Shown here: piece after piece, positions 8,316 through 47,475 of the stretch
Layout of the letters: every line of letters starts with the position of its first letter
Numbering within the stretch: the first letter of the stretch is position 1
Notes under the pieces: model-generated
The model's input: only the letters and a program-made list of their open reading frames with translations
Database searches by the model: none
What the model was told of the DNA's origin: nothing
Program-made: the position numbers and the translations under genes
Source: Flavobacteriaceae bacterium
GTDB taxonomy: Bacteria > Bacteroidota > Bacteroidia > Flavobacteriales > Flavobacteriaceae
DNA: 64,000 nt
Reading direction: 5' to 3'
NCBI GenBank assembly: GCA_030835825.1
Contig: JAURRA010000010.1
Coordinates: 62,001 to 126,000, forward strand

Positions 8316-9290
8316 TTAGCTTACCCGCGACATCAACCAGATGGCAAATTGACGAAATTGGGCCTTACTAGCCTCAGGTAAAGAAGTGTCTTCCAGAGCA
8401 GTCATGGCTTGCTGTGTATGAGTGTCAATTTTGAGTTTGATCGCCTCGTCAGCTTTGCTTTCACGGAAAAATAATTTAACCTGGTCTATTTTATCTTCAA
8501 CAGAATCGGGCTCTTTTTGAAACAAATCTTTTAGAGTCTGGGCCTTCACGGAATCTAAAAGTGCCATCGCCTTGAGGTAAAGAAAAGTCTTTTTATTTTC
8601 AATAATATCTCCTCCAACTTGTTTGCCAAAAGTTTCAGGATCACCAAAAGCGTCTAAATAATCATCTTGAAGCTGAAAGGCCATTCCCAATTCGACACCA
8701 AAAGTGTATATGCTGTCTTGATCTTGAGCAGAGGCCCGAGCAACAATGGCCCCCATTTGCAATGCAGCCGCAACCAAAACGGCTGTTTTTTGACGTATCA
8801 TGAGTAAATAATCCGATTCGGTAACAGTGTGTTGAGTTTCAAAATTAATATCACGCTGCTGTCCTTCACAGACCTCTAAAGCAACTTTATTGAATGCCTT
8901 CATAAGTTGCTGATATCGCTCATCCTTATATTCTTCGAGCTGTTGATAGGCCAAAATCATCATGGCATCACCAGATAAAATACCGGTATTAGTATCCCAC
9001 TTTTCATGCACGGTTACCATTCCCCTTCTCAAAGGCGCATCGTCCATAATATCATCGTGAATTAACGTGAAATTATGAAAAATCTCAACGGCCATTGCCG
9101 CTCCCATGGCTTGGTCTATGCCTTCCCCAAAGGCTTCGGCAGCCATTAACGTCAATAAAGGCCTCAGTCTTTTACCTCCCAATTTGAGTACATAATTGAT
9201 GGGCTCATACAATTCGGGCGGCTCTCTGTCTGCCGCGTCAACTGCCAAGGCGGACTCAAATTTTGCGCTGTAGTGATTGAGAAAATCCAT
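8316..9290 (-). CDS. Trans-isoprenyl (polyprenyl) diphosphate synthase
   Basis: The enzyme condenses isopentenyl diphosphate with allylic diphosphates to make prenyl chains for quinones, carotenoids or other isoprenoids. The 324-residue protein contains GGKRLRPLL (about residues 38-46), the first Asp-rich motif DDIMD (79-83) followed by DAPLRRG, and the second motif DDYLD (209-213) in a FQLQDDYLDAFGDPETFGKQVGGDI block. All catalytic aspartates are present. The residue before the first DDxxD region is a bulky aromatic set (FHNFTLIHDD), which affects chain length, but I cannot assign farnesyl, geranylgeranyl or longer product with certainty. It is divergent from the tetR gene across 129 bases. 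Confidence 0.92.
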   Translation of the reverse strand: MDFLNHYSAKFESALAVDAADREPPELYEPINYVLKLGGKRLRPLLTLMAAEAFGEGIDQAMGAAMAVEIFHNFTLIHDDIMDDAPLRRGMVTVHEKWDTNTGILSGDAMMILAYQQLEEYKDERYQQLMKAFNKVALEVCEGQQRDINFETQHTVTESDYLLMIRQKTAVLVAAALQMGAIVARASAQDQDSIYTFGVELGMAFQLQDDYLDAFGDPETFGKQVGGDIIENKKTFLYLKAMALLDSVKAQTLKDLFQKEPDSVEDKIDQVKLFFRESKADEAIKLKIDTHTQQAMTALEDTSLPEASKAQFRQFAIWLMSRVS

Positions 9291-9419
9291 GGTCGCAAGT
9301 TAAAAGAATTATAAAACCAACATACACCTCAGAGCCGAAAATGTTAAATTTTATTAAACTTGGGAAACGAATTAGGTTTTTAAAGTTTCCATAATTAATT
9401 TCGTGCCCTAATTTAAAGG

Positions 9420-10037
9420 ATGACTACCAAAGATTTAATTGTTTCAAAAGCCACTGAATTGTTCCTTTCATTAGGTTTCAAAAGTGTAACTATGGACGAT
9501 ATTGCTCGCCAAATTGGCGTGTCTAAAAAAACACTTTATATTCATTTGCAAAACAAAACCTCCCTGATTGAGGAGGCGACTTTTCAACTTTTTACCAAAA
9601 TTTCTTTAGGCATTGATCATATCTGTGATCATTCTGAGAACCCTATTGAGGAACTATACGACGTCAAGCGCTTTGTGATGAGTCACATGAAGAATGAACG
9701 CATGTCTCCACAATTTCAACTCAAAAAATATTATCCTGAGATATACGATCGCCTTTGGAAAAATCAGTTTGACAAAATGTATCTGTGCATACACAACAGT
9801 ATTCGCAAGGGAATTGATACGGGGTTTTTTCGGGAAGAAATTGATCCCGACTTCACAGCCCGCCTCTATTTCAATGGTATGATGGGTATACGAGATGAGC
9901 GTATTTTTCCCCCAAAATCATTCGCTCTAACTTACCTAGAGAACAGCTTTTTGGAGTATCATCTCCGCGCTCTCGTAACCATGAAAGGAATGACGGTATT
10001 ACAAGATTTTATTTCAAATAATATAACTCAAAAATGA
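9420..10037 (+). CDS. TetR/AcrR family transcriptional regulator of the efflux operon
   Basis: The 205-residue protein has an N-terminal TetR helix-turn-helix at about residues 8-52 (ATELFLSLGFKSVTMDDIAR, then QIGVSKKTLYIHLQNKTSL), followed by an all-helical ligand-binding region. Its last four bases overlap the start of the tolC-like gene (ATGA), so regulator and pump genes are translationally coupled. TetR proteins in this position usually repress their own efflux operon and are released by a pump substrate; that is inferred from context. A near-consensus -7 box (TAATTTCG) lies shortly upstream. The inducing ligand is unknown. Confidence 0.9.
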   Translation: MTTKDLIVSKATELFLSLGFKSVTMDDIARQIGVSKKTLYIHLQNKTSLIEEATFQLFTKISLGIDHICDHSENPIEELYDVKRFVMSHMKNERMSPQFQLKKYYPEIYDRLWKNQFDKMYLCIHNSIRKGIDTGFFREEIDPDFTARLYFNGMMGIRDERIFPPKSFALTYLENSFLEYHLRALVTMKGMTVLQDFISNNITQK

Positions 10038-11374
10038 AAAATAAACTTATTCTCTTATTGACATGGGTCATGCCAATTATTGCTTTGGCACAAAACAGTC
10101 ATTCCTTGAGTCTGGAAGAAGCCATTGACTATGCTTTGGAACACAATACTAAAATTTTGAGTGCTCAAAAATCGGTATTGAGCGCTGAATATGAGCGCCG
10201 CAAAACCATAGCAACTGGATTGCCTCAAATCAAGGGTGATTTGACCTACAACAATTGGCTAAAGCAGCAAGTTTCTTTAATTCCAGCAGAATTTTTTGGA
10301 GGAAATCCTGGAGAATTTGCATCAGTTACTTTCGGGACAAAACAAAATGTTGGTGCCTCTGCCGAACTCAGTCAACAGTTATTTAATGGTTCCTATTTGG
10401 TTGGACTTCAAGCCTCTAAAGTGTATTTAGCAATTTCTCAAAATGCTAAAGAAAAAGTAGAAATAGAGGTGGTCAAAGCGGTGACATCGGCCTATGCCAA
10501 TAGTTTAATGGCCGATGAAAGCACTCAAATAGCCGAGAGAAATTTGATCGATATAGAGAAAAATTTAGGAGATATAGAAGGTCTTTTTAGAGAAGGCATG
10601 GTGGAAGAGGAAAGTGTTGAGCAAATAAAGATTCTTAAATCATCCGTTGAATCTAATTTTAACAATGGTCAAAGAATGCGTGATTTGGCCTTTAATATGT
10701 TGAAACTTGTGCTAGGGCTGAAAATAGATGAGACATTAATTTTAAGTGATAATTTGGAAAGTTTAGCGCTTCAAAATTTAAATATAGACCTAGTCAATCA
10801 AGACCTCAACGTAGAGCAGCATATTGATTTTCGAATTGCCAAAAACCAAGAAGAAAGCAATGCCCTATTGTTAAAATTAGAAAAAAGCAAAGCCTTACCT
10901 CAACTCAATGCGTTTGTAAATACAGGGTATAATGGTTTTAATGACGCATTCCAATTCACCTCGTCTCAACAGCAATGGTTCGGTTATTCGCTGGCAGGAA
11001 TCAGAATGTCAATACCTATATTTAGTAGTCTAGGTCGTCAAGCCGCAACAAATCAGGCTCGTGCAAACTTGGATATGGCGCGAATTGCATTGAAGGAAAC
11101 GCAACAAAAATTATATTTCGAATTGGACTCGGCCAAAAGTAATTTCCAGTATGCGATTGAAACCTACTATAACAACCAAGAGCGTCTTCTATTGGCCGAA
11201 CGCATATCCAAAAAAAACCAAATCAAATTTCTCGAAGGCATCGCCACAAGTTTTGATTTATTGCAGGCTCAAAAACAACTTTACGAAGCGCAGTACAACT
11301 ATCTCAATGCGATGACCGAGGTCATAAATAAAAAAACATCTTTAGATACAATTCTCAATAATCTTTCAAAATAA
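10034..11374 (+). CDS. TolC family outer-membrane efflux protein
   Basis: TolC proteins form the outer-membrane and periplasmic exit duct of tripartite pumps. The 446-residue product has a signal peptide (MKNKLILLLTWVMPIIALAQ) and then the family pattern SLSLEEAIDYALEHNTKIL. Two long helical hairpin repeats follow, including LPQIKGDLTYNNW in the first half and LPQLNAFVNTGYNGF plus SIPIFSSLGRQAATNQARANL in the second. The duplicated structure and length are typical. It is the second gene of a tetR-tolC-adaptor-RND operon, overlapping the regulator by four bases and separated from the adaptor gene by seven. It should pair with the pump at 12576-16058. Confidence 0.93.
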   Translation: MKNKLILLLTWVMPIIALAQNSHSLSLEEAIDYALEHNTKILSAQKSVLSAEYERRKTIATGLPQIKGDLTYNNWLKQQVSLIPAEFFGGNPGEFASVTFGTKQNVGASAELSQQLFNGSYLVGLQASKVYLAISQNAKEKVEIEVVKAVTSAYANSLMADESTQIAERNLIDIEKNLGDIEGLFREGMVEEESVEQIKILKSSVESNFNNGQRMRDLAFNMLKLVLGLKIDETLILSDNLESLALQNLNIDLVNQDLNVEQHIDFRIAKNQEESNALLLKLEKSKALPQLNAFVNTGYNGFNDAFQFTSSQQQWFGYSLAGIRMSIPIFSSLGRQAATNQARANLDMARIALKETQQKLYFELDSAKSNFQYAIETYYNNQERLLLAERISKKNQIKFLEGIATSFDLLQAQKQLYEAQYNYLNAMTEVINKKTSLDTILNNLSK

Positions 11375-41200: not shown

Positions 41201-41323
41201 GATCGCTTATCAAAACAGATGAAAGAGGCTGAGTCGACTTTTGAATCCTTAAAAAAGAAATTCAAAAATATGGATCAACTGGCTTTGAAGGATAAGGTCA
41301 GTTTCCTAGAAACAGCCAATTAG
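38294..41323 (+). CDS. Exported BNR/sortilin-like beta-propeller protein (second of two)
   Basis: The 1009-residue protein has a signal peptide (MKTLKLTLVLLTLPFWGQSQ). It has about ten Asp-box motifs (SDGGVVF, TDGGANW, TDGGESW, TDGGKSW, DDAGNSW, RDGGKTF, MNGGVTM, RNGGKTW, TDYGASW, MDGGQQW) and the same overall plan as the protein at 33510-36602, including SARHIGPALMSGRINDM matching YRLVGPFRGGRSAAV. The C-terminal domain (SWDYRLKPPIVAKGK) and helical end also correspond. They are paralogues, not recent copies. The fold should be a pair of beta-propellers in the periplasm or at the cell surface. No enzymatic residues can be assigned. A terminator follows at 41346. Confidence 0.85.
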   Translation: MKTLKLTLVLLTLPFWGQSQDDAIKNGKALFGDLSARHIGPALMSGRINDMTLHPTNSLIVYAGTAGGGVWKSSDGGVVFQPIFDDYCQSIGAVALDPNDPDNTIYVGTGETWTRNSVSVGDGLYKSTDGGANWKKIGFENSDRIANIVINPNNSNEIYVGVLGALWGDSSERGVYKSTDGGESWEQILYIDQRTGCADMAMDPNDPNVLYASMWAFRRTGWSFESGGDTSALYKSTDGGKSWNKIHNGFPSGDLGRLGIAIAPSNPKVLYTVIEAEEPSKKGLYRSDDAGNSWQQLNNDFGITVRPFYFSRIVVDPRNEDVVVKGGLSGSISRDGGKTFKALGNMHSDIHDIAFHIKDSNIMYVGTDGGVYRSMNGGVTMEIVENLPISQFYHISLDNAKPYNVYGGLQDNGSWYGPSSSPGGIEAKDWESIGQGDGFRVLKHTTKPIIYSEMQGADNIWRIDTENRLIKTIQPLPADEAVKLRFNWNTPIAMSSTHPDRFYVGSQFLHRSEDMGDSWDIISPDLTTNDPMKQNQEDSGGLSMDNSGAENHTTIFTIAESPIDDQVIWVGTDDGNVQVTRNGGKTWTNTVANIPDLPANTWTYHIEASVFDAGTAYAVFDGHTQNDMSTYVYKTTDYGASWKSIVTDDIVGFARNIQEDFVNPDLLFLGTEFGLYITMDGGQQWLKFTNNMPAVAVHFIDLQPQTNDLVMGTHGRGVIIVDDISPLRELSSEMMSKNVHLFDIKPTVIDEKSDFGGNFGAETQFVGANPNQSVQIKYYLSKRHTFGKMGIDILNAEGQKVGEVGPGKKKGINIVSWDYRLKPPIVAKGKTITFGGFTSPKAAPGTYKMVMTKGKDTYEQPFELKLDDTLPITPADYEERDRVSKLLFDMSESLAYMVYQLDEMIGHNTNQKPSKYSKRLNTLKESLVITTGDNYVGTAEPQLREKIANLFSKVATSYDRPSANDMENFDRLSKQMKEAESTFESLKKKFKNMDQLALKDKVSFLETAN

Positions 41324-41345
41324 TTCTGATCATTATTTTGGTACA

Positions 41346-41374
41346 AAAAAAGGATGGCATGGCCATCCTTTTTT
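41346..41374. terminator. Bidirectional terminator between convergent genes
   Basis: AAAAAGGATGGC and GCCATCCTTTTT form a 12-base stem with a three-base loop (ATG). A's precede and T's follow, so it can serve both the BNR gene on the plus strand and the acidic lipoprotein gene on the minus strand. Confidence 0.85.
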
Positions 41375-41395
41375 ATTGAATATCATAGCGTTGTA

Positions 41396-42475
41396 CTATT
41401 GGCAGTTGTCAACCAAAAGTAACGCATAACCGCTAGAACTATCGATTAGGGCTAAAATATCGTCGTCGCAATAGGTAACAAGCCACTCTCCGGAAAGAAA
41501 ATCGAAATCGGCGGGCAGATCGTTTATCGTCAATAAAACCATTACAGATGCGTCATCGGTTACGGTAAAAGTGGTTGTAGTTAAAACTGTATTGTCGGCA
41601 TCGTCGGCCAAAATACTCACTGCTCCGTTGTTGTCAAAATCTAAAAACATTCCTGACCCAGAGGCACTATCAGCAATGAAATACAAGCAGTCATCGGTTA
41701 AGGCGGATGTCAATTCTGCGACACTGCAATAGCCCATGCCCAAATCGTTATCTCCAGTATCATCCATACTGTCGTCATAGCACTGCGAATCCATGAAGGC
41801 GGCTTCGAGTTCTGCGTCAGAATAAACTGCGACTTCTGATCCATCTTGAAAAACCAAAGTTACAGGATAGTCGAGCGCAAAATAATAGAAGTTGTCATTA
41901 GACAGATAGTAGTCGTCGAAGAGCTCATACAAATCGGTTTCGCTAAGTACTTGTGACGCATTGACAAATTCGCCATTTTCATCATAAGTAGAGATACTAA
42001 TTGGATAGACAAAATCAACACAAGAATAGCTCTCACTGTCATCGGAGCCGTCGGTACTATCTACACAGCTGTTGATATATTCTTCTAGGACTTCTTGGGT
42101 TTGAACAACTACCTCAGAATAATCAGAAAAAATTAGAGTTATCGGAAAAACAAATTCGACATCATCATCAGCGAGCGCATCTAATAGATCAGACAAAGCC
42201 TCAAGAGATGCCAAATCCTCTATCACCATAGGAACATCGGCTATCAAAATGGTTACTGGCAGAGCAATAGAAAAGCAATCGGAGTCGTCGAGTGAGTTGT
42301 CATAGCTCACATCGTTGGCAGCCGCAGAGCGAATCATCCCAACCAACGGCGCATCTGTTTCTAGGGCATTTGATGGGGCTGTATCCGCAGATTGGATGGG
42401 TTCATTTTGACAAGACATGATTGATATTATCAATACAAATGACAATATCGATTTAAGATTAAACATGTTTTTCAT
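41396..42475 (-). CDS. Highly acidic lipoprotein with internal repeats
   Basis: From ATG 42475 the product has 359 residues; an in-frame ATG 19 codons earlier precedes a second, better start (MKNMFNLKSILSF) and is rejected. A lipoprotein signal ends at SIMSCQNE. The body is very acidic, with many Asp and Ser. Two repeat units can be seen: ALPVTILIADVPMVIEDL with FPITLIFSDYSEVVVQTQ, and VYPISISTYDENGEF with YPVTLVFQDGSEVAVYSD. Each ends in a conserved Glu-rich helix and a Cys (ELEEYINSC-like, ELEAAFMDSQC). The last third, from about residue 245, looks like a separate beta-rich domain (FLDFDNNGAVSILADD). I do not recognise the family. Confidence 0.75.
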   Translation of the reverse strand: MKNMFNLKSILSFVLIISIMSCQNEPIQSADTAPSNALETDAPLVGMIRSAAANDVSYDNSLDDSDCFSIALPVTILIADVPMVIEDLASLEALSDLLDALADDDVEFVFPITLIFSDYSEVVVQTQEVLEEYINSCVDSTDGSDDSESYSCVDFVYPISISTYDENGEFVNASQVLSETDLYELFDDYYLSNDNFYYFALDYPVTLVFQDGSEVAVYSDAELEAAFMDSQCYDDSMDDTGDNDLGMGYCSVAELTSALTDDCLYFIADSASGSGMFLDFDNNGAVSILADDADNTVLTTTTFTVTDDASVMVLLTINDLPADFDFLSGEWLVTYCDDDILALIDSSSGYALLLVDNCQ

Positions 42476-42540
42476 GATAAATGTTGTTTTAGCAAAGTAA
42501 GTCAAAAAAATATGAAGTTCGAAATGAAGCACTTCAGGCC

Positions 42541-42837
42541 TTACTCATTCTCATCAGAATCGGGCAGACTTATATCTATATCCAGGTCGGCATCATCGTT
42601 ACCATCCATATCATGGGACTGATCGATAAAATCTTCCATGGCTTTTTCCAACTTGACTCCAATTTTAACCAAGTATACTATTTCTTCGGAACGCACTTCA
42701 ACAGCGTGAATCAACTCGTTGTTAGCATTTCTAAAGGTAATGATGTCGTCGTCATCATAACCATCGGGGTATTTTTGGACTAACATTTGTAAAACATCAT
42801 CCGTTAATTTTTGAAAATCTACAATTTTTCGAATCAT
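42541..42837 (-). CDS. Small acidic protein of the polyamine operon
   Basis: The 98-residue product has a basic N-terminal end (MIRKIVDFQKLTDDVLQMLV), a predicted beta-rich middle (DIITFRNANNELIHAVEVR), a helix (YLVKIGVKLEKAMEDFIDQ) and a strongly acidic tail of Asp and Glu (MDGNDDADLDIDISLPDSD). It begins one base after the deoxyhypusine-synthase-like gene, the last of a tight four-gene unit. I do not recognise a domain. Its placement suggests a role with the polyamine genes or simply operon packing; acidic tails can bind polycations such as polyamines, which is a speculation. It is probably cytoplasmic. Confidence 0.7.
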   Translation of the reverse strand: MIRKIVDFQKLTDDVLQMLVQKYPDGYDDDDIITFRNANNELIHAVEVRSEEIVYLVKIGVKLEKAMEDFIDQSHDMDGNDDADLDIDISLPDSDENE

Positions 42838-42838
42838 A

Positions 42839-43813
42839 TTAATAATTTAATAAATAAGCAAAAATCAGTGGTGCAACAATGGTTGCATCACTTTCTATGA
42901 CAAATTTCGGGGTATTGATATCCAGTTTTCCCCAAGTGATTTTTTCATTGGGGACAGCCCCAGAATAAGAGCCATAGCTGGTCGTAGAATCGCTAATTTG
43001 GCAGAAATAGCTCCAAAACGGCGTATCGTGTCGTTCGAGATCCTGAGCTAGCATGGGCACCACGCAAATTGGGAAGTCACCTGCAATGCCGCCACCAATT
43101 TGAAAAAACCCTATTCCCTTTTGGGCGTTATCGGTATACCAATCAGCCAAGAAGGTCATGTACTCAATACCAGATTTGACGGTACTGGCTTTGAGTTCAC
43201 CTTTGATCACATAGCTGGCAAAAATATTACCCATTGTACTGTCCTCCCAGCCTGGGACTACCATTGGCAAGTTGGCCTTAGCGGCAGCGAACATCCATGA
43301 ATCCTTCAAGTCAATTTCATAGTATTGCTCTAGCACGCCAGAGAGTAAAAGTTGGTACATGTACTCATGAGGGAAATACCTTTCCCCTTTAGATTCTGCA
43401 GACTGCCAAAGTTCCACAATATGCCCTTGCAATCTTCGGAAGGCCTCTTCTTCGGGGATGCAAGTGTCGGTTACTCTGTTTAGTCCTCTTTCGAGCAATC
43501 CCCATTCATCTTCTGGTGTTAAGTCGCGATAATTTGGAATACGTTCGTAGTGAGAATGGGCCACCAAGTTCATCACGTCTTCTTCCAAATTGGCTCCAGT
43601 ACAAGAAATGATTTGAACCTTATCCTGCCGTATGACCTCAGCAAATATTTTACCTATTTCTGCGGTGCTCATGGCACCTGCGAGTGAAACAAGCATTTTA
43701 TGACCCAATTCCAGTTGGTGCTCATAGGATTTAGCTGCGTCAACAAGGGTTGCGGCATTAAAATGCAGATAGTACTTTTCTATAAATTTTGAAATTTCTC
43801 CCTTATTAGTCAT
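42839..43813 (-). CDS. Deoxyhypusine synthase-like enzyme, probable homospermidine synthase
   Basis: The 324-residue protein belongs to the deoxyhypusine synthase family, NAD-dependent enzymes that transfer an aminobutyl group from spermidine. It contains the NAD-binding LVSLAGAMSTAEIG and SCTGANLEED stretches, GIGFFQIGGGIAGDFP in the middle, and the catalytic lysine Lys296 in ITWGKLD, matching the SWGK of eukaryotic enzymes. Bacteria lack eIF5A, and characterised bacterial homologues make homospermidine from putrescine. Here the gene follows speA and speB (overlap of eight bases with speB), which supply putrescine. A homospermidine synthase role is therefore likely, but spermidine-specific activities cannot be excluded. 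Confidence 0.85.
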   Translation of the reverse strand: MTNKGEISKFIEKYYLHFNAATLVDAAKSYEHQLELGHKMLVSLAGAMSTAEIGKIFAEVIRQDKVQIISCTGANLEEDVMNLVAHSHYERIPNYRDLTPEDEWGLLERGLNRVTDTCIPEEEAFRRLQGHIVELWQSAESKGERYFPHEYMYQLLLSGVLEQYYEIDLKDSWMFAAAKANLPMVVPGWEDSTMGNIFASYVIKGELKASTVKSGIEYMTFLADWYTDNAQKGIGFFQIGGGIAGDFPICVVPMLAQDLERHDTPFWSYFCQISDSTTSYGSYSGAVPNEKITWGKLDINTPKFVIESDATIVAPLIFAYLLNY

Positions 43814-44738
43814 CGGATGAGAATTTAGATTTTAATGCCTCGAAAGACAGGTTGTCGTCGGAATCTTCAATAACTTCGTTGTCCTGTTGGTCTAGGAATT
43901 TATAGGACAGCATTTTGTAATACAGTTTGGCAGCCAATAAATTAGAAGAGCCATCTGTTGGATTTGGGCACAGTTCAACAATGTCAAAACCAACAACATT
44001 TTTTTCTCTAAAAACCATTTTCAAAAAATCTAAGGTTTCATACCACAATAAACCGCCTGGTTCGGGTGTTCCTGTACCGGGCATGATAGAAGGATCGAGG
44101 GCATCCAAATCGAAGGTAATAAAAACATTTTCTGTCATTTCCTCCAAGGCTGCATCCATCCATAAATCACTGGTTGCCATCTCGTGAGCAAAAAAAGTTT
44201 TGCTCAAATCCATAAAATCTAATTCAACTTGGTCCATGGATCGAATACCCACCTGCACTAGATTGGTCATTTTACTTGCCTCATGCACGGCACAGGCATG
44301 ATTACAGGCACTGCCCTCGTAGCTGCTTCTCAAGTCGGCATGGGCATCGATATGCAGCACCGTGAGGTTGTCGAAACAGTCATTGAAAGCACGTATGGTG
44401 CCAATGGAAATAGAATGTTCGCCACCAAATAGGGTGGTAAACTTATTTCGTTTGATATAAGATTTGGTGATTTGGTGCACCGCGTCGACCATATCCTCTG
44501 GCGATTTGTTCTCTGTAATGGCATCGGCCAAATAGATCCCCTCTTTATAGACTTCGGTGCCAGTTTCAATGTCATAGAGTTCCATGTTTTCTGAAGCCTC
44601 TAAAAAGGCTTCTGGGCCTTGATCGGATCCTTTTTGCCAAGTGCTCGTTCCATCGTAGGGCACTGGAATAAGAACTATTTTGGCTGTCTCTAATTTGGCA
44701 AACTCTTCGGGAATACCCGCGTAAGTTCTAATTTTCAT
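43806..44738 (-). CDS. speB: Agmatinase (arginase family)
   Basis: Agmatinase hydrolyses agmatine to putrescine and urea using a di-manganese centre. The 310-residue protein has all six metal ligands of the family: His108 in GGEHSISIG, Asp131, His133 and Asp135 in DAHADLR, and Asp210 and Asp212 in FDLDALDPS, followed by PGTGTPEPGGL. The last motif is shared by agmatinases. It overlaps speA by 11 bases upstream and the next gene by eight downstream, a strongly coupled operon. Formiminoglutamase or arginase is possible on sequence alone, but the neighbour arginine decarboxylase makes agmatine the expected substrate. Confidence 0.93.
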   Translation of the reverse strand: MKIRTYAGIPEEFAKLETAKIVLIPVPYDGTSTWQKGSDQGPEAFLEASENMELYDIETGTEVYKEGIYLADAITENKSPEDMVDAVHQITKSYIKRNKFTTLFGGEHSISIGTIRAFNDCFDNLTVLHIDAHADLRSSYEGSACNHACAVHEASKMTNLVQVGIRSMDQVELDFMDLSKTFFAHEMATSDLWMDAALEEMTENVFITFDLDALDPSIMPGTGTPEPGGLLWYETLDFLKMVFREKNVVGFDIVELCPNPTDGSSNLLAAKLYYKMLSYKFLDQQDNEVIEDSDDNLSFEALKSKFSSDD

Positions 44739-46125
44739 ATCCTAAAATATTAAGTAATTGTTCGCTAGATTGTTGATGTTTAAAAACCGATGTGACCATG
44801 TCTCCATTGTCATTTCGATCGATTAAAATATGTTGAGGTGAAGGAATCAAGCAGTGTTGAAGCCCACCAAAACCACCGATGGACTCTTGATAGGCTCCCG
44901 TGTTAAAAAACCCAACATAGAGTGCTTTTTGTTTGGAATACTTGGGCAAATAAATTGCATTGACATGTTGTTCACTATTGTAATAATCGTCACTATCACA
45001 AGTCAAACCCCCGAGCAAGACACGCTCATAGGGGTCCTTCCAACCATTGATTGGCAGCATGATAAACCTTTTGTTAATGGCCCAAGTGTCGGGTAAATTA
45101 GTGATAAAAGACCCGTTAATCATGTTCCACTTTTCACGATCGTTTTGTTGCTTTTGGTTTAATATTTTAAAAATAGCACCGCCACTTTCGCCAACAGTAT
45201 AACTTCCAAATTCTGTAAAAATATTGGGGACGGGAACCTCTGCTTCCTCACAAGTCAATTTAATTTGATTGACAATTTCCTCAATGATATACTCATAGTC
45301 GAACTCGAAGGCCAATGAATTTTTGATTGGAAAGCCTCCGCCAATATTCAGGCTGTCCAGACTGGGGGATTTCTTTTTCAGGTTGACATATACTTTGAGA
45401 CATTTGACCAATTCATTCCAATAGTAGGCATTGTCACGAATACCAGTATTGATAAAAAAATGGAGCATTTTCAGTTGAACACGGTCGTTATCCTTGATTT
45501 GTTGATCAAAAAAGGGTACAATATCCTTGTAGCCAATACCTAATCTTGAGGTATAAAACTCGAACTTGGGTTCTTCCTCCGAAGCAATCCGTATGCCAAT
45601 ATTAAAATCTCCTTTAATCTTTTCGGAGAGCAGCTCCAATTCGGCATAATTGTCCAAGACTGGGATGCAATTGTCATGACCCTCATTGATTAGGTCGGCA
45701 ATATTAGCGATGTACTGTTTGGTTTTGAATCCATTACTGATGACATAGGTTTGATTGGTAATGGCTCCTGTAGTTTTCAAATTCTTGATTATATCCATAT
45801 CTATGGCCGACGAGGTCTCCAAATGAATGTCATTTTTCAAGGCTTCGTTTAGGACATGACTAAAATGGGAGCTTTTGGTACAATAGCAGTAATGGTATTT
45901 GCCTTTGTAATCGAGCTTTTTAAAGGTCTGTTGAAACATCCTTTTGGCCTTGTTGATGTTGTTAGAAATTTGAGGGAGATAGCTGAATTTCAAGGGTGTT
46001 CCATAGGTTTCGATCAATTGTGTAAGATCGATATCGTGGAATCTAAGACCCGATTCGTCGAGCGTAAACTCCTTTTGAGGAAAGTCAAAGGTTTGTTCTA
46101 TTAAGTCGATATAACGGTTATTCAT
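44728..46125 (-). CDS. speA: Arginine decarboxylase, alanine-racemase-fold (short type)
   Basis: This PLP enzyme decarboxylates arginine to agmatine. The 465-residue protein has the fold-type III layout: the PLP lysine Lys84 in YCYCTKSSHF, then the TIM barrel with NIGIRIASEEEP and LNIGGGFPIKN, and a C-terminal beta-domain with PHIFTEFGS-like (VPNIFTEFGSYTVGESGG) and LLGGLTCDSDD. The length is shorter than the E. coli biosynthetic SpeA (about 630), as in the Bacteroidota group. It heads the polyamine operon and its neighbour agmatinase supports arginine over diaminopimelate or ornithine as substrate. The region upstream of 46125 has no clear promoter. Confidence 0.92.
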   Translation of the reverse strand: MNNRYIDLIEQTFDFPQKEFTLDESGLRFHDIDLTQLIETYGTPLKFSYLPQISNNINKAKRMFQQTFKKLDYKGKYHYCYCTKSSHFSHVLNEALKNDIHLETSSAIDMDIIKNLKTTGAITNQTYVISNGFKTKQYIANIADLINEGHDNCIPVLDNYAELELLSEKIKGDFNIGIRIASEEEPKFEFYTSRLGIGYKDIVPFFDQQIKDNDRVQLKMLHFFINTGIRDNAYYWNELVKCLKVYVNLKKKSPSLDSLNIGGGFPIKNSLAFEFDYEYIIEEIVNQIKLTCEEAEVPVPNIFTEFGSYTVGESGGAIFKILNQKQQNDREKWNMINGSFITNLPDTWAINKRFIMLPINGWKDPYERVLLGGLTCDSDDYYNSEQHVNAIYLPKYSKQKALYVGFFNTGAYQESIGGFGGLQHCLIPSPQHILIDRNDNGDMVTSVFKHQQSSEQLLNILGYEN

Positions 46126-46461
46126 TCTATATTTTTCTATTAAAAGGGAAAGTAATTATTGGTGTAAGGTCACAGAGAACAATGACAAGGTATCAAACCA
46201 AAAGCTGATACCGCGTAGTAGAAAATACAGACGGAATAAAAGGACGAGCCGCGCTCAAGACATTGGAAGCGTGCTTTAAATTTCGGTTACTTGCTCTGCA
46301 AGCTGTCTTTGAAAATGTCTTCCAAATTTTCAAAAACCCGAAGGTAGAAACAGTTTTCAAGTTGTTCAGCGGCTAAGCTAAAACGTGCTTAGGCGAAGCA
46401 AATTAAAATCAAAAAAATTACTTTTAACCGATTTCGCTAAAAAAAATAGTTTCGAGGCTCC
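46126..46461. other. 336-base gap between the divergent-tail speA and AlkB-type genes
   Basis: No gene is supported. The gap contains an inverted repeat, TTTGAAAAT (46308-46316) and ATTTTCAAA (46326-46334), within a 33-codon open frame on the minus strand (46287-46388). Its translation has protein-like composition (FSLAAEQLENCFYLRVF then ENLEDIFKDSLQSK). It could be the end of a decayed gene or a dispersed intergenic repeat. The right part should contain the speA upstream region; I see no TANNTTTG element. Confidence 0.5.
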
Positions 46462-47475
46462 TCAGGCCGCCATAGGCTGAGGGATTCTGGGATTCATTAC
46501 GCCAAACCAAAGGGGGGGGATGAGGGACATTAACATGGAGGTGGGGTAGCCAAAAGGCAACTGTGGGCTATTTTCTTGATGTATTAAATTTTGATAGGGC
46601 TTGTTAGACTTGTTATGATGATCGCTGTGTCTGGTCAGTTCATACAAGAGCATTCGGCCCAGCTCGTGATTAGAATTCCATGAGTGACTGATATTTACCC
46701 GCTCATATCTTCCATTATCATGCCGCTTTCTGGTCAAGCCATAATGTTCGATATAATTTATTGTTTCCAAAAGCAATAGTCCTACTACCCCACAAAACAC
46801 CAGTATCATCATGGGGAATAATCCTAGAAAGAAAATACCTAAACCCACAACCAATACATGAGCCACGCCTGCTAATAGCATATAATTGGATCTGCTGAGA
46901 AAGGGTTTTTCGGAGCGCTGTAGTAATTGCCATTGGATACGCCAAGCCTTGGCATAGGTTCCAAAAACCGACTGGATATAAAACGCATAAACCGATTGGT
47001 TTTTATGGGCAGTAGATGGATCGTTTGGTGTGGCCACATCGAGATGATGACCGTAGTTGTGTTCGATAAAAAAATGATAGTAATGACTAGGAAGCAGCAA
47101 CAACAAAGCGGATAAGTGATCATACCAATGACTGCGATGCCCCAATTCATGAGCCACATTGATCCCGTTAGACCCTAAAACGGTGCCTAATGACAGCACC
47201 AATCCGATCAACTCATAGACTTGTCTTGGCGTATTCAACCACACTATGGCGAAAAAGATCAAACCGTAAACAAAAATCAAATTGACATAGAGCAGTATGT
47301 CAAAAAATATCTGGGACAGCCGATAGCTGTTTTTTACCGACGAAGCCGAAAAGAATAGTTCTGCTATAGGAATTACGACAAAAGCATAGCAAACTCCTGC
47401 AAACGGAAAATAACCCCCCAAGTCAAGACCTAAGTAGGTGATAATCGGTAAGCTATAGGCCAATAGATATTTCAT
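46462..47475 (-). CDS. AlkB-type membrane hydroxylase / alkane 1-monooxygenase family
   Basis: The enzyme uses a di-iron centre in the membrane to hydroxylate an alkyl chain. The 337-residue protein has the four histidine clusters in order: HELGHRSHW (109-117), EHNYGHH (138-144), the AlkB-specific NYIEHYGL (240-247) and HSDHH (283-287). Five or six membrane helices surround them. The NYxEHYGL and HSDHH motifs favour AlkB over fatty-acid desaturases. It is a single gene without rubredoxin nearby, so the electron donor must be encoded elsewhere. In flavobacteria related proteins may act on alkanes, fatty acids or other lipids; the substrate is not clear. Confidence 0.9.
   Translation of the reverse strand: MKYLLAYSLPIITYLGLDLGGYFPFAGVCYAFVVIPIAELFFSASSVKNSYRLSQIFFDILLYVNLIFVYGLIFFAIVWLNTPRQVYELIGLVLSLGTVLGSNGINVAHELGHRSHWYDHLSALLLLLPSHYYHFFIEHNYGHHLDVATPNDPSTAHKNQSVYAFYIQSVFGTYAKAWRIQWQLLQRSEKPFLSRSNYMLLAGVAHVLVVGLGIFFLGLFPMMILVFCGVVGLLLLETINYIEHYGLTRKRHDNGRYERVNISHSWNSNHELGRMLLYELTRHSDHHNKSNKPYQNLIHQENSPQLPFGYPTSMLMSLIPPLWFGVMNPRIPQPMAA

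Follow-up and report, generated by a model that had tools for sequence, protein, structure and literature searches.

Two bacterial branches of the deoxyhypusine synthase (DHS) fold family provide the closest described systems for the locus analyzed here. SpeY is a DHS-like homospermidine synthase, and published gene clusters are reported to combine it with a decarboxylase and either SpeB or AIH plus NCPAH (PMC10407285, PMC9992855). Thermus CdmS is described as working with a SpeB-type enzyme (PMC10981699). We analyzed a 64,000-nucleotide stretch from a Flavobacteriaceae bacterium (assembly GCA_030835825.1, contig JAURRA010000010.1, positions 62,001 to 126,000 of the forward strand), referred to as a whole as the window, in which four genes on the minus strand at 42541-46125 encode an arginine decarboxylase (ADC), the agmatinase SpeB, a DHS-like enzyme and a small acidic protein. 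On the basis of gene content, conservation, the clade of the DHS-like enzyme, its kept Lys, Trp and Glu residues and its presence in species of Flavobacterium, whose main polyamine is homospermidine, this operon is probably the cell's homospermidine pathway, running from arginine to agmatine, putrescine and homospermidine. The preliminary description of this DNA had predicted the same route, which remains the best supported one through gene content, gene swapping and published polyamine profiles, but it had missed the agmatine-based alternative posed by Thermus CdmS. Its statement that characterized bacterial members of the family make homospermidine is too simple, since CdmS makes caldomycin from agmatine.

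Comparison with described DHS-family enzymes

The DHS-like gene (42839-43813, minus strand) encodes a 324-amino-acid protein, predicted to be a putrescine-using homospermidine synthase, that matches the DHS fold family (Pfam DS, PF01916) with 132.1 bits against a gathering cut-off of 27, over profile positions 10-287 of 288. With SpeY it shares this fold family, the catalytic lysine and a cluster with a decarboxylase and putrescine-making genes. The lysine is Lys296 of TWGK, exactly where the preliminary description had placed it, and its codon (42926-42928) lies in the stretch for the 16-residue motif GSYSGAVPNEKITWGK (42926-42973, minus strand). The enzyme differs from SpeY in its separate clade and in scoring 101.3 bits against an equivalog cut-off of 450 on the homospermidine biosynthesis protein model NF001980, a comparison made through the NF001980 model and NF001980-type sequences. 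Thermus CdmS belongs to the same fold family; the window enzyme differs from it in reaching 86.5 bits against an equivalog cut-off of 500 on the caldomycin synthase model NF002699, in its separate clade, and in a gene swap, described below, that points to putrescine and not agmatine. Models for DHS proper gave 95.9 of 304 bits (TIGR00321) and 105.7 of 434 bits (NF002006), and on each of the seven NCBIfam DHS-family models that it matched, the enzyme stayed under the cut-off. Three other members of its clade scored 103-122 bits on NF001980 (cut-off 450), and none of the four members scanned in NCBIfam (the window enzyme and those of loci L088, L089 and L102) passed any cut-off. Because neither the NF001980 nor the CdmS model is passed, the substrate of the window enzyme cannot be taken from family membership.

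A DHS-family gene was found in 159 of 198 Bacteroidota genomes. By Pfam score band these comprise 79 caldomycin-synthase-like genes (∼307-346 bits where listed), 8 at ∼230-250 bits, one at 277 bits and 71 window-like genes (∼130-153 bits where listed). NCBIfam spot checks returned 603 bits for L107 on the caldomycin synthase model, and 567 and 468 bits for L117 and L121 on NF001980. The preliminary description had proposed a phylogeny against characterized homospermidine and deoxyhypusine synthases. Our tree of 42 sequences places the window enzyme in a clade of its own: every one of the 200 bootstrap trees sets the 20 window-type sequences apart from the rest (support 100/99). In the same tree, 13 CdmS-type sequences grouped in 99% and seven NF001980-type sequences in 100%. 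The order in which these groups join is unsure because the tree program warns of long branches. These data indicate that, judged by its sequence, the DHS-like enzyme belongs to a distinct Bacteroidota clade, here called clade iv, to which members were assigned by the tree for 20 sequences, by NCBIfam for four and by Pfam score band for the remainder. The 277-bit protein (L116:2050-3081, genome G185) is under all NCBIfam cut-offs (best 261 of 434 bits), adjoins a long ADC and forms a long lone branch in the tree.

In human DHS, N1 of spermidine is described as held by Asp316 and N10 by Asp243 and Asn292, with His288 approaching C5; putrescine is held by Asp243 and Asn292, turning towards Glu136 and Glu137 (PMC7226451). 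All 20 aligned clade rows share GWEDSTxGN, FFQIGGGIAGDFPICVV and GSYSGAVPNEKITWGK, the last of which (with Lys296) is identical in 20 of 20 rows, is invariant in two further alignments and aligns with GSDSGARPDEAVSWGK of human DHS. Human Lys329, Trp327, Glu323 and Glu136-Glu137 are kept in this motif alignment as Lys296, Trp294, Glu290 and Glu77-Glu78. The window enzyme therefore shares with eukaryotic and archaeal DHS the catalytic lysine in WGK and keeps human Glu136-Glu137-Asp as Glu77-Glu78-Asp79, a motif that, unlike in the window enzyme and human DHS, is not kept in the aligned NF001980- and CdmS-type rows. It differs from eukaryotic and archaeal DHS in that Asp243, His288 and Asp316 are changed, and NF001980-type rows differ from it at these same three human positions. 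The active-site set is thus unlike that of human DHS and unlike those of the other bacterial rows aligned. These correspondences come from motif alignment only, an AlphaFold model of the protein having a mean predicted local distance difference test (pLDDT) score of 46 (18-row alignment, 80-88% identity to the window sequence). The counterpart of human Asn292 is unsure because HMMER opens a gap there; the ungapped counterpart would be Cys250.

The CdmS paper highlights Phe204 and Leu286, which occupy the positions of Asp243 and Asp316 in the human enzyme (PMC10981699). In the CdmS-type rows of our alignment, the first position is Phe and the second is Leu in most cases (Cys in L112), and one of these rows, a cyanobacterial plasmid protein, is over the CdmS model cut-off. 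We know of no assay of this plasmid protein. We considered the two positions as a test of agmatine versus putrescine use and rejected them; they do not settle the substrate because clade iv has Asn and Tyr there and the sequences passing the CdmS model include the cyanobacterial plasmid protein.

A conserved operon with the genes for a probable homospermidine pathway

The first gene of the operon (44728-46125, minus strand) encodes a short, pyridoxal phosphate (PLP)-dependent ADC of 465 amino acids (Pfam PF02784, Orn_Arg_deC_N, 54.7 bits). It is followed on the same strand by speB (43806-44738; 310 amino acids), whose product matches Pfam Arginase with 214.7 bits and passes the agmatinase model TIGR01230 (229.4 bits against an equivalog cut-off of 174.3), then by the DHS-like gene and by the gene for the acidic protein (42541-42837, minus strand; 98 amino acids). 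The ADC and speB genes overlap by 11 nt (44728-44738), speB and the DHS-like gene by 8 nt (43806-43813), and the acidic gene follows after a gap of 1 nt (42838), so that open reading frame (ORF) coordinates bear out the arrangement reported previously. In the proposed pathway, ADC would convert arginine into agmatine and SpeB would hydrolyze this agmatine to putrescine and urea. Using NAD, the DHS-like enzyme would then join the aminobutyl group of one putrescine, via an imine on Lys296, to a second putrescine, yielding sym-homospermidine; we infer the putrescine specificity, product, cofactor and imine of this last step.

The short ADC did not reach the cut-off of the SpeA model TIGR01273 (150.8 bits against an equivalog cut-off of 624; 465 amino acids against a 624-position profile). 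Its closest solved relatives are the biosynthetic/arginine decarboxylases 3n2o, 3nzq and 3nzp (87, 81 and 72 bits), and a diaminopimelate decarboxylase scores 31 bits. Four related clusters (L097, L099, L102 and L105) hold a long ADC in the same neighborhood, and the three of these that were scanned (L097, L099 and L105) pass the speA cut-off. Because its nearest solved relatives are ADCs and a full-length ADC substitutes for it in other clusters, the short ADC is likely to be arginine specific.

Recurrence of the operon was followed in 80 titled loci, the best 80 of at least 592 confirmed DHS-like matches and a sample biased to Flavobacteriaceae. An ADC homologue adjoins the DHS-like gene in all 80 loci, agmatinase is present at 55, and the acidic gene is present at 70, in every one of them on the strand of the operon. 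The acidic ORF starts at a distance of at most 60 nt in 63 of these 70 loci, at 93 nt in one and at ∼1.6-1.7 kb in six, where a 509-562-amino-acid protein related to L088:3453-4982 lies in between. Six other window genes flanking the operon recur in none of the 80 loci. The operon is thus a true conserved unit, beyond chance, and this recurrence of neighbors bears out the earlier view that the four genes act as one unit. The gene set is conserved in flavobacteria, and its four-gene form is not universal: the 25 titled loci lacking agmatinase are 22 Flavobacterium loci and three from uncultured genomes, and at 17 of 17 clade loci sampled in families other than the window's, no acidic gene was found behind DHS. 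Among 19 clade iv loci sampled more widely across the phylum, the fetched flank held an ADC homologue in 9 and an agmatinase homologue in 2.

Putrescine or agmatine as substrate

The same gene order could also serve a different chemistry. If the DHS-like enzyme were CdmS-like, it would couple two agmatines, after which a SpeB-type enzyme would free homospermidine; the two enzymes share a fold family, and with ADC and agmatinase both in the operon this scheme fits an ADC-SpeB-DHS order equally well. Thermus CdmS is reported to have used agmatine as its sole substrate, the SpeB-type ureohydrolase TtSpeBap finishing the route (PMC10981699). Evidence on this point comes from the genes that accompany clade iv members. 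A deiminase and an amidase together are described as converting agmatine into putrescine (PMC10407285, PMC9992855; for the amidase, PMC10135574). We surveyed 57 of the 71 genomes that score band assigns to the clade within the 198-genome sample, with thresholds of at least 250 bits for the deiminase and at least 280 bits for the aguB-like amidase; the 14 clade genomes omitted from the deiminase and amidase survey all have an agmatinase over the cut-off (G130 only with neighbors in frame). Agmatinase was over the cut-off in 25 of the 57 genomes and not in the other 32. A deiminase homologue together with an aguB-like amidase was present in 26 of the 32 genomes without agmatinase versus 7 of the 25 with it (Fisher P = 1e-4, kinship ignored). 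In L097, L099, L102 and L105, the deiminase and amidase genes stand in one same-strand cluster with the clade DHS gene and a long ADC.

Because deiminase and amidase homologues stand in for agmatinase in most of the genomes without it, the common feature of the clade's partner genes is putrescine production. That clade members occur with these homologues in place of an agmatinase over the cut-off, in the same cluster at four loci, argues against a CdmS-like reaction, as do the score of 86 of 500 bits on the CdmS model and the separate clade, and we consider agmatine coupling by the window enzyme unlikely. No match to the aguB amidase model was found in the window's own genome. In L102 (genome G235), the agmatine deiminase match at 8869-10055 extends over two overlapping frames, perhaps through a frameshift or an assembly error. 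At least 14 genomes of family f30 (for example, G069, G073, G078 and G090) carry a caldomycin-synthase-type DHS by score band and have no agmatinase-model match that could account for caldomycin hydrolysis.

A different donor or acceptor is also conceivable, though improbable: the enzyme might use, for example, imported spermidine with putrescine, or agmatine with putrescine to give aminobutylagmatine for SpeB to hydrolyze. Such a reaction would suit active-site residues that match neither human DHS nor the aligned NF001980-type or CdmS-type sequences, and human-type DHS is described as highly promiscuous (PMC7780104). The window's own genome, however, shows no match to spermidine synthase or to carboxyspermidine decarboxylase (CASDC), and little spermidine was reported in the two Flavobacterium strains profiled (PMC8570120).

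Polyamine profiles and other candidate genes

Published polyamine profiles are consistent with putrescine-based homospermidine synthesis. In two Flavobacterium type strains, homospermidine is reported at 27.3 and 20.5 μmol per g dry weight, putrescine at 0.7 and 0.2 and spermidine at 0.2 and 0.3 (PMC8570120). The two profiled strains are not, by name, among our titled loci, which include 22 other loci of Flavobacterium with the enzyme. According to the Weeksella virosa genome paper, all members of Flavobacteriaceae have homospermidine as their major polyamine (PMC3072086).

The window's own genome (95% complete) has no match to the spermidine synthase family and none to nspC (CASDC), and an absent gene could lie outside the assembled portion. 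Both searches were likewise negative in two further genomes of its genus (86 and 92% complete), and the nspC cut-off was passed by 0 of 59 clade genomes. Homospermidine synthase (HSS) carries the Sacchrp_dh_C domain. The one Sacchrp_dh_C match of the window's own genome is nearest to the solved saccharopine dehydrogenase 2axq, and homospermidine synthase is not among the five solved matches of this protein. On this indirect test, HSS was rejected as the maker of homospermidine in this genome.

Several observations weigh against the assignment of the operon to homospermidine synthesis from putrescine. Six of the 32 genomes without agmatinase over the cut-off also lack the deiminase and amidase pair at the thresholds used (G075, G091, G103, G115, G142 and G149), and these six carry arginase-family proteins under the agmatinase cut-off. 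The aguB-like proteins score 281-328 bits, under the model cut-off of 410, and both deiminases scanned are under their NCBIfam cut-offs. The survey covered clade iv genomes, and the swap may not be specific to them. For the enzyme itself, the score on NF001980 (101 of 450 bits) is no better than that on the DHS model NF002006 (106 of 434 bits), and the polyamine-holding residues of human DHS are replaced in the motif alignment, Asp243 by Asn196, Asp316 by Tyr283 and His288 by Asp246. In the open-licence literature we found no assay of any clade iv member or other Bacteroidota DHS homologue, nor a paper bringing together homospermidine, Flavobacterium and deoxyhypusine; a DHS family gene of a Bacteroidota symbiont appears, in the account available, in expression correlations only (PMC12323627).

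The distribution of candidate enzymes adds to these points. Ten of 37 genomes of the window's family had no match to the DHS-like enzyme (two of the ten are <90% complete), G012, G020, G021, G022 and G035 among them; if homospermidine is universal in the family, these genomes must have another maker, and otherwise the published claim is wider than true. The HSS test in the window's own genome is indirect because it looks for HSS through the Sacchrp_dh_C domain, and the two saccharopine-dehydrogenase-like proteins scanned received no name from NCBIfam. Spermidine-synthase-family matches of at least 120 bits occur in 8 of 59 clade genomes, seven of them in frames of 505-542 amino acids, so the DHS-like enzyme is not everywhere the sole candidate triamine maker.

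The acidic protein

No Pfam or NCBIfam model is matched over its cut-off by the acidic protein, and PDB sequences gave nothing convincing (best E value, 0.025, for a fluorescent protein). AlphaFold predicts a beta-alpha-beta-beta-beta-alpha core of ∼70 residues followed by a low-confidence acidic tail; confidence averaged by block is 81-87 up to residue 60, 51 over residues 61-70 and 43-47 beyond. Searches with this model gave no usable match (Foldseek best E value, 0.12; VIA-align best Z, 2.8); the VIA-align rows at Z 2.0-2.8 include many glyoxalase-like proteins and one eukaryotic ribosomal protein. The earlier statement that the protein has no known role stands as far as these searches reach. 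Across the window protein and 70 relatives, Lys10, Leu11, Pro24, Gly26 and Tyr27 are invariant in all 71 rows, and Lys58 is found in 70 of them. From residue 71 onward the family has a median of 31 residues, 60% of them Asp and Glu, and the median net charge is -21 (-18 in the window protein).

The family has paralogues, some genomes carrying two or three copies, and at four loci checked by Pfam a copy adjoins aroB. In the phylum sample, 26 of the 198 genomes gave a match, 19 of them in the window's family and seven others with weak matches only (E values of 2e-12 to 4e-4). A profile search of the wider sample located the acidic gene behind DHS at 2 of 19 clade loci, each from the window's family. 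Among 60 relatives, both genes occurred in 29, the DHS-like gene alone in 4 (one of these genomes being 55% complete), the acidic gene alone in 13 and neither gene in 14. A core role in the pathway was rejected in view of the 2 of 19 clade loci and the aroB-adjacent copies; a divergent acidic homologue (26% identity) behind the DHS gene in Ancylomarina runs counter to that rejection. Because it is rare outside the window's family and has copies beside aroB, the acidic protein would more probably be an accessory factor of the flavobacterial operon than an enzyme of the core route. From its charge and place, one might guess at a polyamine-responsive regulator or a polyanionic partner.

To our knowledge, bacteria have EF-P in place of eIF5A. 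It is highly improbable that the DHS-like enzyme modifies a protein lysine in the manner of deoxyhypusine. One conceivable target would be Lys10 or Lys58 of the acidic protein, both nearly or fully invariant; the other would be EF-P, which has a PGKG loop in the 23 genomes (of 30) in which the loop could be read (six gave no read, and in one the match fell on the wrong stretch). Acidic homologues carrying these lysines are, however, also present in genomes lacking a match to this DHS (for example, G012 and G022), no acidic gene was found behind DHS at the 17 clade loci sampled in other families, and the loop lysine of EF-P does not vary with the DHS gene, being present in 10 genomes with it and 13 without it. 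A hypusine-like aminobutyl modification in bacteria with homospermidine as a second product is just as hard to credit.

Flanking features

An Asp-rich gene (41396-42532), lipoprotein-like by eye, lies on the same strand 8 nt past the operon at its first possible start; it probably lies outside the unit because it recurs in 0 of the 80 titled loci. The whole window gives two tRNAs only at gathering threshold, with no known RNA at the operon, and terminator-like sites in 41300-46600 are about as frequent as in shuffled sequence (5 versus a mean of 4.6). A protein of ∼510 amino acids is encoded inside or within a few kilobases of the operon at L088:3453-4982, at L092:3441-4958 and in 20 of the 80 titled loci (for example, L143:5975-7507), with carbon-nitrogen hydrolase and GNAT domains by Pfam on L088:3453-4982 only. 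At L197, a contig labeled Campylobacterales holds the flavobacterial operon (DHS 85% identical) and is probably mis-binned.

Significance of the clade

Taken together, the finding is most likely a divergent offshoot of a pathway type already described, with an added putative accessory protein, and the route predicted earlier is most likely correct, for better reasons than those first given. What is new is modest: a separate Bacteroidota clade below every curated model, with altered active-site residues. If this reading is true, clade iv would be a third bacterial branch of the DHS family with active-site residues of its own, and it would warn against transferring the names "caldomycin synthase" or "deoxyhypusine synthase" onto its members. 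The acidic partner would offer a testable candidate for a polyamine-linked accessory protein. Clade iv would also explain homospermidine as the main polyamine in Flavobacterium and perhaps in many other Bacteroidota.

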